Positions 3,708 through 8,248 of a stretch of 9,040 nt of DNA are shown piece by piece; the stretch's first letter is position 1; each line of letters opens with the position of its first letter. Source of the DNA: Candidatus Hydrogenedentota bacterium (GTDB lineage: Bacteria; UBA8481; J006); NCBI GenBank assembly GCA_003697085.1, contig RFFU01000053.1, positions 1-9,040 of the forward strand, in the 5' to 3' direction. A program made the translations under genes and the position numbers. The notes under the pieces were generated by a model, which saw nothing but the letters and a program-made list of their open reading frames with translations, had not been told where the DNA came from and did no database searches.

Positions 3708-4489
3708 TGGAGCACTCGCCTGCGGCCACGAATCGCGACGGGGAGAAGCGCAAGGCCGGCAAGAATCAAAACGGCCGAGATGGCAAAAGCCGCTTCCGGA
3801 GAGGTTTGAAGAGCCTGATACGCCGCCAGCGGCAGCGTCCTTGTTCTGCCGGGAAGATTCCCGGCAAAGGTGATTGTCGCCCCGAACTCGCCCAACGCCC
3901 GTCCCAGCGCCAAGGCCGCACCGGAAAGAAAAGCCGGCCGAACCATGGGAAACGTGACGGAAACGAAAACGCGCATTGGGGAGGCCCCGCAAACCGCCGC
4001 AATCTTCTCGAGGCGGCGGTTCCGAGCGCGAAACCCCGCTTCCATCGCGAGGATAAAGAGTGGAGCGCTGACGAAAAACGCGGCGAGAACCGCGCCGGCA
4101 AGAGTGAAGGGGAGAGAAACACCGAACCAGTCCGCAAGATAACGACCAAGAAAGCCTCGCCGCCCGAAGACGCTCAACAATCCGATCCCGCCAACCACCG
4201 GCGGCATCACCAACGGAAGAAGAACCGCGGCCCGCAGCACGCGCGTTCCGGAACCGTTTGCCTCCGCCAAATGATACGCCGCGGGAATACCGAAGAGACA
4301 GCAGAGAAGAAGCACGATTGTTCCCACCAACGCCGATACCCCCATCGCCTCGAAGGCGCCGTATCGCCCCAAGATCTGAAAAAATTCGCGCCACGGGGTT
4401 CGCATCAACAAACCGAAAGCCGGCAGGAAGAAGAAGAGGAGAACGAGGAGAGCGGGAAGGAACGTAAGACGCTTCGACGGCTTCTTCAT
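3704..4489 (-). CDS. modB: Molybdate ABC transporter permease
   Basis: The 261-aa inner-membrane permease forms the molybdate channel and couples to ModC. An N-terminal hydrophobic segment (about 9-28) is followed by several more (about 51-71, 87-108, 128-150, 184-200, 235-252). The EAA coupling loop is EKIAAVCGASPMRVFVSVTF (161-180), which contacts the ATPase. The ModB-typical LGRALGEFGATI (195-206) and RTRTLPLAAYQAL (215-227) are clear. ATG 4489 shares one base with the modA stop (TGATG on the minus strand). Only a weak GGGAG lies 14 nt upstream, so translation is probably coupled to modA. The open frame extends upstream to 4645, but that part is Arg/Gly-rich and lies within modA. Length is normal for ModB (E. 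coli 229 aa). Confidence 0.93.
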   Translation of the reverse strand: MKKPSKRLTFLPALLVLLFFFLPAFGLLMRTPWREFFQILGRYGAFEAMGVSALVGTIVLLLCCLFGIPAAYHLAEANGSGTRVLRAAVLLPLVMPPVVGGIGLLSVFGRRGFLGRYLADWFGVSLPFTLAGAVLAAFFVSAPLFILAMEAGFRARNRRLEKIAAVCGASPMRVFVSVTFPMVRPAFLSGAALALGRALGEFGATITFAGNLPGRTRTLPLAAYQALQTSPEAAFAISAVLILAGLALLPVAIRGRRRVLH

Positions 4490-5361
4490 CAAACGACATT
4501 TCGCTCCCGCGAGAAGAGAGCACCCCGCGGTCGGAGCAAAAAAGCCTCTGAATCCGAAGACCGGTGTGAATCCGCCCTTCCGCCGCCGCCGACCGGCTCG
4601 AATCCGTATCGTTCCAGCAATGCTCTTCCCCCCGGACTCCGCCATCCCTCCAGGAATCTCCGCACCGTATCGTGTTTTCCCGCCGAGCCGGGAAGAACCA
4701 CCGCGTAGTACGTCGCCGTCACATTGAAACTATCCGGAATCGAAACGCCGCGTACCTTCCGCCCTCGAAGATCACTGCGATAAACGATCCCCGCGTCCAC
4801 CTCGCCGAATTCCACCTTCGCCAATGCCGCCCGAACATCGGGTTCCCAAGACACGACGTTCTTCCTCACTTTTTCGAATATTCCGGCGCGTTCGAGCACT
4901 ACCCGTGCGTATGCCCCGGCCGGAACCTCCGGCGCCGCCAAGACGACCTTGCATGAAGAACCACCGAGGTCGCCGAAATGAAATTCTCCCGCTCTTCCCC
5001 GCGCCACAGCAACAACCATCTTCGTCGTGAAGAGAGGCTTCATCGGGCCTTTCCGCTCTCGAAGGACCCGTTCCGCTTGAAGGCGGTTCGCCGAAACGAA
5101 GATATCCGCGTTCGCTCCCGAGAGTATCTGGGAAGCCAGCGTCTGGGATCCGGCCGCATTGACCTTGAAAGGCGGGGTTGAGGGCAATGCGGCGTACTCC
5201 CTCAAAACATCACTCAACGAGGCTGCCGCGAAAACGACAAGCGGCTCCGAAAGCGGCCTTTCCGCTTTCGCGCGCGGTCGATCGCCCATTCCACACCCCA
5301 CCGATGCAAAGAGACACAGGAGCGAGAACAGCGTAATACGGGCGCGGAATCGATTTCCCAT
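4489..5361 (-). CDS. modA: Molybdate-binding (lipo)protein of the ABC transporter
   Basis: The 290-aa extracytoplasmic solute receptor delivers molybdate (or tungstate) to ModBC. The signal (RFRAR, then LFSLLCLFASVG) is followed by Cys23, a plausible though not ideal lipobox (SVGC), so it is probably membrane-tethered. ModA hallmarks follow: VVFAAASLSDVL (42-53, oxyanion-contacting Ser), AAGSQTLASQILSGANADIFVSA (69-91), LAAPEVPAGAYARVVL (141-156) and DAGIVYRSD (189-197). The conserved domain ends near RYGFEPV (251-257). The last 33 residues (258-290, Arg/Ser-rich) are an unusual tail whose coding part runs up to the modB start. ATG 5361 is chosen because it starts the signal peptide. An in-frame ATG at 5460 would add 33 residues encoded by the promoter region. 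There is no Shine-Dalgarno, and a -10-like element ends 7 nt before the ATG, suggesting a leaderless message. First gene of modABC. Confidence 0.93.
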   Translation of the reverse strand: MGNRFRARITLFSLLCLFASVGCGMGDRPRAKAERPLSEPLVVFAAASLSDVLREYAALPSTPPFKVNAAGSQTLASQILSGANADIFVSANRLQAERVLRERKGPMKPLFTTKMVVAVARGRAGEFHFGDLGGSSCKVVLAAPEVPAGAYARVVLERAGIFEKVRKNVVSWEPDVRAALAKVEFGEVDAGIVYRSDLRGRKVRGVSIPDSFNVTATYYAVVLPGSAGKHDTVRRFLEGWRSPGGRALLERYGFEPVGGGGRADSHRSSDSEAFLLRPRGALFSRERNVV

Positions 5362-5368
5362 AGACGTT

Positions 5369-5397
5369 ATTCTGAAAGAAATTCTCCCACTTGGCAA
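5369..5397 (-). promoter_or_regulatory. Promoter of modABC, predicted leaderless start
   Basis: On the minus strand, -35 TTGCCA (5397-5392, 5 of 6 matches) and -10 CAGAAT (5374-5369, 4 of 6) are separated by 17 bp. Only AACGTCT separates the -10 from ATG 5361, which places the expected +1 at or within a base of the A of the start codon. No ModE-like operator was recognised. Confidence 0.55.
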
Positions 5398-5464
5398 TCC
5401 TACACCCTCCGGCCGGCTGCCTATCGAATATTTTGATTGACGGAAGGTGGATTCTCCCATTTCC

Positions 5465-5482
5465 GAAATCGGAGAAATCGGA
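5465..5482. repeat. 9-bp tandem repeat upstream of the mod promoter
   Basis: GAAATCGGA occurs twice in tandem (5465-5473 and 5474-5482). The same stretch contains TTCCGA (5461-5466) and its inverse TCGGAA (5478-5483). It lies about 70 bp upstream of the modA -35, in the 201-bp gap between the DUF2905 gene and modA. It could be an operator or chance. A small GAGGC/GCCTC hairpin (5494-5498 with 5506-5510) is next to it. Nothing else was recognised in 5362-5562. Confidence 0.4.
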
Positions 5483-5562
5483 AGACATTCGGCGAGGCTG
5501 CCGTTGCCTCCTAACGAAAATCAGCGCGTCGAGAACATCTTACAGACACCGCCATAACCGCT

Positions 5563-5778
5563 TCAGCGGCGCAAGAGCCAAAAGACCACGGAGAGAAGAA
5601 GGCTGATCAAGAGACAGGTCGTCAACGGAAAATAGAACGCGAACCCGTCGCGCTCGATCCGGATGTCTCCCGGAAGCCGTCCCAGATACGGGATCCTGCT
5701 TCCGAAGAGAAACGCCAGACCAAGCACGAAGAGGACGAGCGCGAAAAGAAGAAGCATCTTCCCCATCTGTTCCAGCAT
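5563..5778 (-). CDS. DUF2905 family small membrane protein
   Basis: The 71-aa product has two hydrophobic segments (about residues 8-26 and 50-68). They flank the conserved core GRLPGDIRIERDGFAFYFPL (33-52), the hallmark of DUF2905, usually annotated as a small inner-membrane protein of unknown function. Length matches the family. The open frame extends upstream to 6012, but that part is antisense to the thioredoxin gene and not family-like. ATG 5778 gives MLEQMGKMLLLF, a typical start. Met at residue 5 (5766) is an alternative. There is no Shine-Dalgarno; TACAAT ends 7 nt before ATG 5778, suggesting a leaderless transcript. It is divergent from the thioredoxin gene and 201 bp upstream of modA on the same strand, so it may be a separate unit or read through into mod. 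Confidence 0.88.
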   Translation of the reverse strand: MLEQMGKMLLLFALVLFVLGLAFLFGSRIPYLGRLPGDIRIERDGFAFYFPLTTCLLISLLLSVVFWLLRR

Positions 5779-5785
5779 GGGGAAG

Positions 5786-5818
5786 ATTGTATCGCGATGG
5801 TCGGGAGGGGTACACCCC
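5786..5818 (-). promoter_or_regulatory. Promoter of the DUF2905 gene with overlapping palindrome
   Basis: On the minus strand the -10 TACAAT (5791-5786, 5 of 6) is followed by exactly 7 nt (CTTCCCC) and then ATG 5778. The -35 is poor (TGTACC at 5814-5809). That -35 zone is covered by the palindrome GGGGT-AC-ACCCC at 5807-5818, which could be an operator. A wider inverted pair, GTACAC 5810-5815 and GTGTAC 5849-5854, spans the divergent region shared with the thioredoxin gene. Confidence 0.45.
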
Positions 5819-5887
5819 ATCTTTGCTGTTCTCTTCAGACTCCCATCGGTGTACAGTTCTCCGCACGGAAAAGGAGATGGTTTTGAA

Positions 5888-6769
5888 ATGGTGATTCCTC
5901 TCTTTGGAAAAAAAGATCGCGGAGAGAAAAAAAACGGTTCCGAGAAATCCGAGGTCCTTTTCGAAAAGCCTCGGGCAACCGCGCCGCGAGAAAAGGGCGC
6001 CGCTTCCGTCATCGATGTCGGGGTACGGGACTTCGAGACGGCGGTGCTCCGCCGTTCCCTTGAGATCCCCGTTCTTCTGGATCTCTGGGCTCCGTGGTGC
6101 GAACCCTGCCGTCGGCTCTCTCCTCTTCTCGAACGCCTCGCGAATCAGTACGCCGGATCGTTTCTCCTCGCCAAGGTCGATATCGAAAAGCACGCCGAGA
6201 TCGCGATGTTGCTCCGCGTGCAAAGTGTTCCCACCGTCATTCTCTTCAAGGACGGTCGGCCGGTCGATGCCTTTATGGGAGCGCTCTCCGAAGGCGAAAT
6301 CCGGCGTTTTCTCGAGAGACACATTGTTCTGAAAAAGGCCTCCGCGGAAGAAGAACAACCCGGAGGACTTCTCGAACAGATCGGGCGCGGAGAGATCGCA
6401 CGCGCCCGAGACCTCGTGAACGAAACGACCTCGCCTCCGGATCGCCTCCGCGTCCTCATCCTGTCCGGAGACACGAACAAGAGCCGGACACTGCTTCAGG
6501 AACTCAAAGGAAAAGAAGGGGCCGAGGGGGATCCCGTTCTGGAGTCGGCCGAGCGGCTTCTCGGATTTTTTGAGGAGGAATCCCCCGAGTCTCTTCGGAT
6601 TCGCGAGTCGTTGCGGAAGAATCGTCTCCGGGAACTGCTTCCGGAACTTCTTGAGAAAGCGGATGACGATTCCGTCCGCCGCCGTCTCCTCGATCTGCTC
6701 GTTCTTATGGGCCGGGGGGAACTTGCGGACGAGATCCGAACGCGGTTGGCGCGGCGGGTCTTTTCTTGA
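5888..6769 (+). CDS. CnoX/YbbN-like thioredoxin with C-terminal TPR-like region
   Basis: The 293-aa product is predicted cytoplasmic. Residues 1-40 are a charged, lysine-rich extension. A thioredoxin fold follows (about 41-147) with active site WAPWCEPC (C71 and C74) and cis-proline P115 in VQSVPT. Residues about 158-293 are helical, and RRRLLDLLVLMGRGELADEIRTRLARRVF (264-292) matches the conserved C-terminal segment of the YbbN/CnoX co-chaperedoxin family. Known members hold unfolded clients, protect their cysteines and pass them to GroEL or DnaK. E. coli YbbN has lost one active-site Cys; here both are kept, so disulfide reductase activity is plausible. ATG 5888 follows AGGAG (5872-5876) by 11 nt. 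The frame is open upstream to 5663, but that part overlaps the divergent gene. TACAGT (5852-5857) is a weak -10 candidate. Transcribed towards ctpA, 51 bp away. Confidence 0.9.
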   Translation: MVIPLFGKKDRGEKKNGSEKSEVLFEKPRATAPREKGAASVIDVGVRDFETAVLRRSLEIPVLLDLWAPWCEPCRRLSPLLERLANQYAGSFLLAKVDIEKHAEIAMLLRVQSVPTVILFKDGRPVDAFMGALSEGEIRRFLERHIVLKKASAEEEQPGGLLEQIGRGEIARARDLVNETTSPPDRLRVLILSGDTNKSRTLLQELKGKEGAEGDPVLESAERLLGFFEEESPESLRIRESLRKNRLRELLPELLEKADDDSVRRRLLDLLVLMGRGELADEIRTRLARRVFS

Positions 6770-6783
6770 GGCGCACTCTTCCC

Positions 6784-6813
6784 TTGTTCCCGCGGCACGA
6801 ATCCTGCTAATAT
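6784..6813 (+). promoter_or_regulatory. Promoter of ctpA, predicted leaderless start
   Basis: TTGTTC (6784-6789) and TAATAT (6808-6813) are 18 bp apart. CCTTTCT (7 nt) then leads directly to ATG 6821. No Shine-Dalgarno is present in the 25 nt before the ATG. The arrangement matches those at modA and the DUF2905 gene and suggests the mRNA begins at the start codon. Read-through from the thioredoxin gene is also possible. Confidence 0.5.
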
Positions 6814-6820
6814 CCTTTCT

Positions 6821-8248
6821 ATGAAAAAACGCCACTCTCACCGTAACGGATTGACGGGGTTTCTGCTCTCGGCGGCGGCCATAGCGATTCTTCTGGGCCT
6901 TCAGATTTCAGATGTCTCGCGTTTCAAGGCACAACAGGCCGACTTCGACGCCTCGCTCCGGGAGATGCAAGTCTTCGTCGAAGCCTATCGGATCGTTCAG
7001 GCCGATTTCGCTGACACGACGAAACTCGACCCGAAGTCCCTGATCCAGGGCTCCATCCGCGGAATGCTCAAAACCCTCGGCGATCCTCATACCCGTTACA
7101 TCCCGCCGAGGGACGCACGGGAGATGATGGTGGAGACGCAGGGAGAATTCGGCGGAATTGGAATTCACATTGCGATGGAGGAGGGGCGCTTGACCGTCAT
7201 CTCTCCCGTCGAGGGAACGCCGGCGTGGCGTGGTGGTGTCGAAGCCGGGGACATCATCTACAAGATCGACGGAGACACGACGGAGGATATGACGTTGGAC
7301 GAAGCCGTCTCGATTCTGCGTGGACCTCCGGGGACCCCGGTCACCATCGAGGTGCTCCGGCGAGGGGTCAAAAAGCCCATTCCGATCAAACTGGTTCGTG
7401 AGGTGATCCGAGTCAAGAGCGTCCGAGGAAAGAGATACAAGGGCGTCGGATACATTCGCATATCACAGTTCACGGAACATACCGCCGAGGAACTCGACAA
7501 TGCGTTGGCGGAAGTTGGAGAAAATGTGGAGGGCCTGATCTTGGATCTCCGAAATAATCCGGGAGGAGTCTTGACCGGCGCGATCGCGGTGGCGAACCGT
7601 TTCCTCGACACCGGTATCATCGTCTCGATCAAAGCCAGGGATCCGAAACAATCCGTGACCTACTATGCCAGTCCCCAGACTCCGATCACGCGCCTTCCCG
7701 TCGTCGTACTCGTCAACGCCGGAAGCGCCTCGGCTTCCGAGATCGTCAGCGGCGCCATTCGCGACAATCACCGGGGGATCCTGGTGGGAGTCAAAACTTA
7801 TGGAAAAGGATCCGTCCAAACGGTCGAAAACCTTCCGGACGGGTCGCGAATCGCTCTGACCACGGCGCGCTATTTCACTCCCTCCGGTGTCTCTATTCAT
7901 GGCATCGGAATCCAACCCGACTCCGAGGTGAAGATGCCTGAGCTCTCAGATACCGACAAGAAGGGGCTACTGGCACTCAACGACACCTTCCTGGTCCGCG
8001 ACTTCGCGTGGGGCAAGGACACCTATACGAAGGAAGACGTTGCCGCGCTTCAAAAGGTTCTCCGCAAGGCGGGAATCATTCTCAGCGACGAGATCGCGGA
8101 ATGGCGTCTGGTGCGGGAACTCGCCCGCCGTCACGCCGACGCCGTTTACCTCGTTCCGCACCTCGATCCTCAACTCCAAAAAGCCCTCGACCTGATTCAC
8201 GCCGGCGCCGTCGTTCGGCCGAAACGACCGCTCTCCGGCATGGGATAG
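6821..8248 (+). CDS. ctpA: C-terminal processing peptidase, S41 family (CtpA/Prc type)
   Basis: The 475-aa product is an envelope serine protease that trims or degrades exported proteins from their C-termini. An N-terminal hydrophobic segment (about 11-30) after KKRHSHR serves as signal or membrane anchor. An N-terminal cap (37-105) includes TLGDPHTRYIPP (85-96). A PDZ domain (about 107-190) includes GEFGGIGIHI and AGDIIYKIDG. The protease core contains GYIRISQF (210-217), GLILDLRNNPGG (238-249), GSASASEIVSGAIRDN (301-316) and KTYGKGSVQT (325-334). The Ser-Lys dyad is inferred to be S304 and K329, with Q333 as the third residue, from the spacing in characterised CTPs (25 and 4 residues). A C-terminal helical region (about 380-460) follows. 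Length is typical. ATG 6821 is the only good start and yields the expected basic n-region. The gene lies between a CnoX-like thioredoxin gene and tsaD. Confidence 0.94.
   Translation: MKKRHSHRNGLTGFLLSAAAIAILLGLQISDVSRFKAQQADFDASLREMQVFVEAYRIVQADFADTTKLDPKSLIQGSIRGMLKTLGDPHTRYIPPRDAREMMVETQGEFGGIGIHIAMEEGRLTVISPVEGTPAWRGGVEAGDIIYKIDGDTTEDMTLDEAVSILRGPPGTPVTIEVLRRGVKKPIPIKLVREVIRVKSVRGKRYKGVGYIRISQFTEHTAEELDNALAEVGENVEGLILDLRNNPGGVLTGAIAVANRFLDTGIIVSIKARDPKQSVTYYASPQTPITRLPVVVLVNAGSASASEIVSGAIRDNHRGILVGVKTYGKGSVQTVENLPDGSRIALTTARYFTPSGVSIHGIGIQPDSEVKMPELSDTDKKGLLALNDTFLVRDFAWGKDTYTKEDVAALQKVLRKAGIILSDEIAEWRLVRELARRHADAVYLVPHLDPQLQKALDLIHAGAVVRPKRPLSGMG

Follow-up and report, generated by a model that had tools for sequence, protein, structure and literature searches.

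Leaderless genes are well known in the Thermus phylum. Zheng et al. 2011 (PMC3160421) described TA-led (leaderless) genes in many bacteria and took a TANNNT motif, situated about 10-12 bp ahead of the start codon, as the sigma70 -10 box; as in the genome studied here, these genes are mostly single or operon-proximal and coexist with Shine-Dalgarno (SD) genes. The present lineage is known from uncultured genomes, and the 2010 RefSeq set of 953 bacteria behind that work is unlikely to include it. In Zhong et al. 2025 (PMC12340547), a TANNNT -10 motif placed, as here, 6-7 bp upstream of the ORF is described for Deinococcus-Thermus, with expression shown experimentally in D. radiodurans. This placement was recovered by our pipeline in Thermus pTT27, where the peak was 10-fold and hence above the 5.5-fold peak of the genome reported below. 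No literature on leaderless genes in Hydrogenedentes was found in our search, and the domain-wide scan of Zhong et al. (PMC12340547) may include the phylum.

The window analysed in this study is the entire 9,040-bp contig C83 of a Candidatus Hydrogenedentota MAG (3.2 Mb, 145 contigs, 94.6% complete, GC 58%). It carries an hldD-like epimerase gene, two hypothetical genes, modC, modB, modA, a DUF2905 gene, a thioredoxin-domain gene (trx), ctpA and tsaD. The best explanation of its upstream regions, judged from the sequence, is that modA, the DUF2905 gene and ctpA are very probably leaderless and expressed from sigma70-type promoters abutting the ATG. Housekeeping-sigma promoters would drive the three genes with the -10 element 7 bp before the start codon, and RNA polymerase would start at the A of the ATG or within one base of it, since a hexamer ending 6-7 nt before this A places +1 on the A. 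The resulting mRNAs would have neither a 5' leader nor an SD site, and the ribosome may initiate directly at the 5'-terminal AUG, which would itself be the initiation signal. We infer this transcription start and this mode of translation for the three genes; the computed support consists of the positional -10 peak, the -35 spacing, the SD depletion, the restriction to ATG and unit-first genes, and the conservation of the ctpA promoter.

In all three genes a -10-like hexamer ends exactly 7 nt before the ATG and no AGGA, GGAG or GAGG is present in the SD window, in agreement with the earlier note on this DNA; hldD, the 1834 gene and trx, which it had set against them, do have SD sites by the same motifs. 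In modA (minus strand) the start codon at 5359..5361, whose A is the predicted transcription start, is followed by MGNRFRARITLFSLLCLFASVGC, a lipoprotein-type signal peptide as judged by eye, and the protein belongs to Pfam SBP_bac_11. Its hexamer CAGAAT (5369..5374, minus strand) is a weak -10 with 4/6 matches which does not conform to TANNNT; it is separated from the start by AACGTCT, and a -35 element TTGCCA (5392..5397, minus strand) with 5/6 matches lies upstream of it across a 17 bp spacer. The DUF2905 gene starts at 5776..5778 (minus strand), its Pfam PF11146 match beginning at residue 6, and is preceded by TACAAT (5786..5791, minus strand; 5/6 matches), the gap sequence CTTCCCC and a weak -35 TGTACC (3/6, 17 bp). 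In ctpA (plus strand) the start codon lies at 6821..6823 and TAATAT at 6808..6813, with the gap sequence CCTTTCT; TGC directly before the hexamer forms an extended -10, a feature absent from the earlier note. Both modA and ctpA had been credited with a -35 hexamer, which is borne out for modA, whereas the TTGTTC of ctpA (6784..6789, plus strand, 18 bp spacer) matches at only 3/6 positions.

The scan for TANNNT that had been proposed for the whole genome covered 1.26 Mb (39% of the MAG), with genes called from coding statistics and start-codon type only, upstream motifs being ignored, and with transcription units defined from gene spacing and orientation. This caller placed the start correctly for only about half of the window genes (the ctpA and DUF2905 starts were misplaced and modA was missed), so that the fractions obtained are diluted. 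Taking the gap as the number of nucleotides between the hexamer end and the start codon, 12 matches at gap 6 and 16 at gap 7 were found before the ATG of 323 transcription-unit-first genes over a background of 2.55 per gap, i.e. 28 observed against 5.1 expected (5.5-fold, P=1.5e-12), and a peak before SD-less starts is thus present as had been predicted. No significant excess at gaps 6-7 was seen for GTG/TTG starts (2/129) or operon-inner genes (6/444), deep in-frame ATGs gave no peak comparable to that of unit-first ATG starts, and the peak was lost on shuffling the upstream sequences. In 200 kb of E. coli K-12 the same pipeline gave no peak at gaps 6-7 (3 matches against 3.3 expected). The identical spacing of the three window sites had been held to argue against chance; by themselves these sites are suggestive, and it is the genome-wide peak that removes chance. 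An exact 7-nt spacing does not hold as a rule, gaps 6 and 7 being used about equally. A raw count of TANNNT-N7-ATG over the whole genome (384, with 359 in a reversed control) was discarded: with most ATGs not being starts, it carries no information.

The hexamers at gaps 6-7 are considered to be promoters because of their -35 elements at 16-18 bp and the depletion of SD motifs. Of the 28 hexamers, 17 have a -35 element (at least 4/6 matches to TTGACA) at 16-18 bp, where about 1.3 were expected (0.63 per gap; P=4.5e-14), whereas the decoy spacing of 11-13 bp gave 5. Strong -35 elements were found at a Rex-type repressor gene (TTGACA-18-TACTAT-6-ATG) and, together with a gap 6-7 hexamer, at a gene for an omega-like RNA polymerase subunit. 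It is quite unlikely that the window hexamers are chance A+T-rich matches and that the three genes have a leader but no SD, with initiation through S1 or low structure. Such genes are common in bacteria (PMC5397173), TANNNT has a background of about 0.8% per gap, and the -35 is weak in two of the three genes (DUF2905 and ctpA); against this, the peak is limited to gaps 6-7 (and 9) with the -35 at 16-18 and not 11-13 bp, it is missing from inner genes and from E. coli, and S1 or A/U richness has no need of a -35. A divergent gene pair on another contig (C62:10645-10698, ATG to ATG 54 bp) has TANNNT 6 nt before each ATG, and this entire intergenic region is predicted to consist of two leaderless promoters back to back.

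SD4 motifs occur at 6/28 of the genes with a gap 6-7 hexamer and at 163/295 of the others (p=6e-4). This depletion, being a genome-wide trait of the gap 6-7 class, also weighs against the unlikely case that the ATG-proximal promoters are secondary and the bulk of the mRNA is made from promoters farther upstream and has an ordinary leader, a longer mRNA of this kind having no SD for its translation. In favour of such a case, ctpA follows trx on the plus strand at a distance of about 52 bp, and alternative promoters are common in bacteria.

The upstream signal was also approached genome-wide with a mixture model in which T1, A2 and T6 were fixed and the spacing was left free; this set-up worked for the Hydrogenedentota MAG and for Thermus. 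In the MAG its core converged on TAgAAT and its spacing on gaps 7, 6 and 9, and the predicted leaderless starts were 91% ATG versus 67% in the SD-class starts, which is consistent with recognition of a 5'-terminal AUG. With an unconstrained second motif the model drifted to pyrimidine-rich background, and its class weight was rejected as an estimate of the leaderless fraction, shuffled data yielding a similar weight without a peak.

One relative of the same order (G001; GC 42%) was compared; a 3.9-kb stretch at its rpoB is identical to PEWQ01000080, deposited as Candidatus Hydrogenedentes bacterium CG07_land_8_20_14_0_80_42_17. For this A+T-rich genome the constrained mixture model was unsuccessful and a fixed-position test was substituted. 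TANNNT was found in 22 and 10 cases at gaps 6 and 7 over a background of 5.75 per gap (P=5e-7), matches at these gaps bearing a -35 gave P=3.9e-9, and SD motifs were depleted (2/32 versus 56/147); a weaker peak is also present in the class of genes which are not unit-first. G001 has a divergent pair similar to that on C62, with 58 bp between the genes (L233:4560-4617). Among 202 reciprocal best pairs, the motif stands in both genomes at well-placed starts for ctpA, a thiolase-like gene and an ATP-cone gene, the latter two retaining gap 6 in both, and two other pairs share it at doubtful starts only. Co-occurrence of the motif across orthologue pairs is weakly significant (Fisher p 0.05-0.07), the test being weak because few orthologue pairs are available. 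For modA the sole match in G001 is remote (23% identity), and no homologue of the DUF2905 gene was found there. The ctpA of G001 reads TGC-TATATT-CTTCTTT-ATG (TGCTATATT-7nt-ATG) against TGC-TAATAT-CCTTTCT-ATG in the window, so that the start, the spacing and the TGC-extended -10 are all the same and the placement of the promoter is conserved between genomes of 58% and 42% GC. A protein search of the genome contigs with ctpA gave no relatives, and an rpoB search of the same contigs did give matches.

The 323 unit-first ATG genes show 12, 16, 3, 12 and 5 matches at gaps 6 to 10: the count dips at gap 8, with 3 matches between neighbours of 16 and 12, and peaks again at gap 9 (P=1.5e-5 against background). 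Leader lengths may possibly be bimodal, 0 nt for gaps 6-7 and about 3 nt for gaps 9-10, as if a leader of 1-2 bases were selected against, and this is rather doubtful; the dip was not seen in G001, with 22, 10, 9, 6 and 4 matches at the same gaps. Leaders of about 3 nt, which the gap 9 peak would fit, also count in favour of the highly improbable reading that the promoters of the three genes are real and translation begins at a codon a little farther downstream, leaving a short leader. Codons 5 and 8 of the DUF2905 gene are indeed ATGs as well, but neither is preceded by an SD, the genomic peak goes with a gap of 6-7 to the ATG, and the ATG and gap of ctpA are the same in G001.

The leaderless class forms a minority of about 7-11% of transcription-unit-first ATG genes, which is a lower bound because about half of the window starts were called wrongly or missed. 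The strict TANNNT excess amounts to about 7% of these genes, and that of a combined score, in which -10, -35 and extended -10 matches at gaps 6-7 are taken together, reaches at most 10.5% over off-gap positions. SD4 motifs, the commoner signal, occur in about half of the unit-first ATG genes; leaderless initiation as claimed earlier is well supported computationally, and its description as widely used was an overstatement. In the window, modA and ctpA score 9 (background rate at or above this score 0.4%) and the DUF2905 gene 8 (1.9%), followed by six other scored genes at 3-6; the implied false-discovery rate of an individual call is about 10% at score 9 and about 20% at score 8. In Zhong et al. 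(PMC12340547) the motif is given for about 30% of Deinococcus-Thermus ORFs, and in comparison with the systems described there the Hydrogenedentota MAG commonly has a -35 at 16-18 bp. Dominant leaderless use of the Deinococcus-Thermus kind was not found in this MAG, even when start miscalls are allowed for, whereas the marks of TA-led genes, namely the gap 6-7 hexamer, the -35 at 16-18 bp, the absence of an SD and the unit-first position, were all found. The finding adds one more case to a known leaderless class and does not define a new kind, because Zhong et al. (PMC12340547) scanned the bacterial domain. Predicted leaderless initiation is hereby extended to the lineage deposited as Candidatus Hydrogenedentota, and in annotation a -10 at 6-7 nt before an ATG can be used to mark the true start of SD-less genes.

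Further features of the window and genome were also recorded. The stop codon of modA overlaps the start codon of modB in TGATG (4487-4491, minus strand), and modB is without an SD; together these make termination-reinitiation coupling likely. A 16S gene, searched for as a check on the anti-SD, was not found in the MAG. Upstream of hldD there is a perfect 21-bp inverted repeat at 450-470 and 549-569, GGTGCCGGGCATTAACTTTTT and AAAAAGTTAATGCCCGGCACC, respectively. Its 16-base core, which is absent from the G001 sample, occurs in two copies per orientation across the 1.26 Mb examined, and hence this core is present elsewhere in the genome too.
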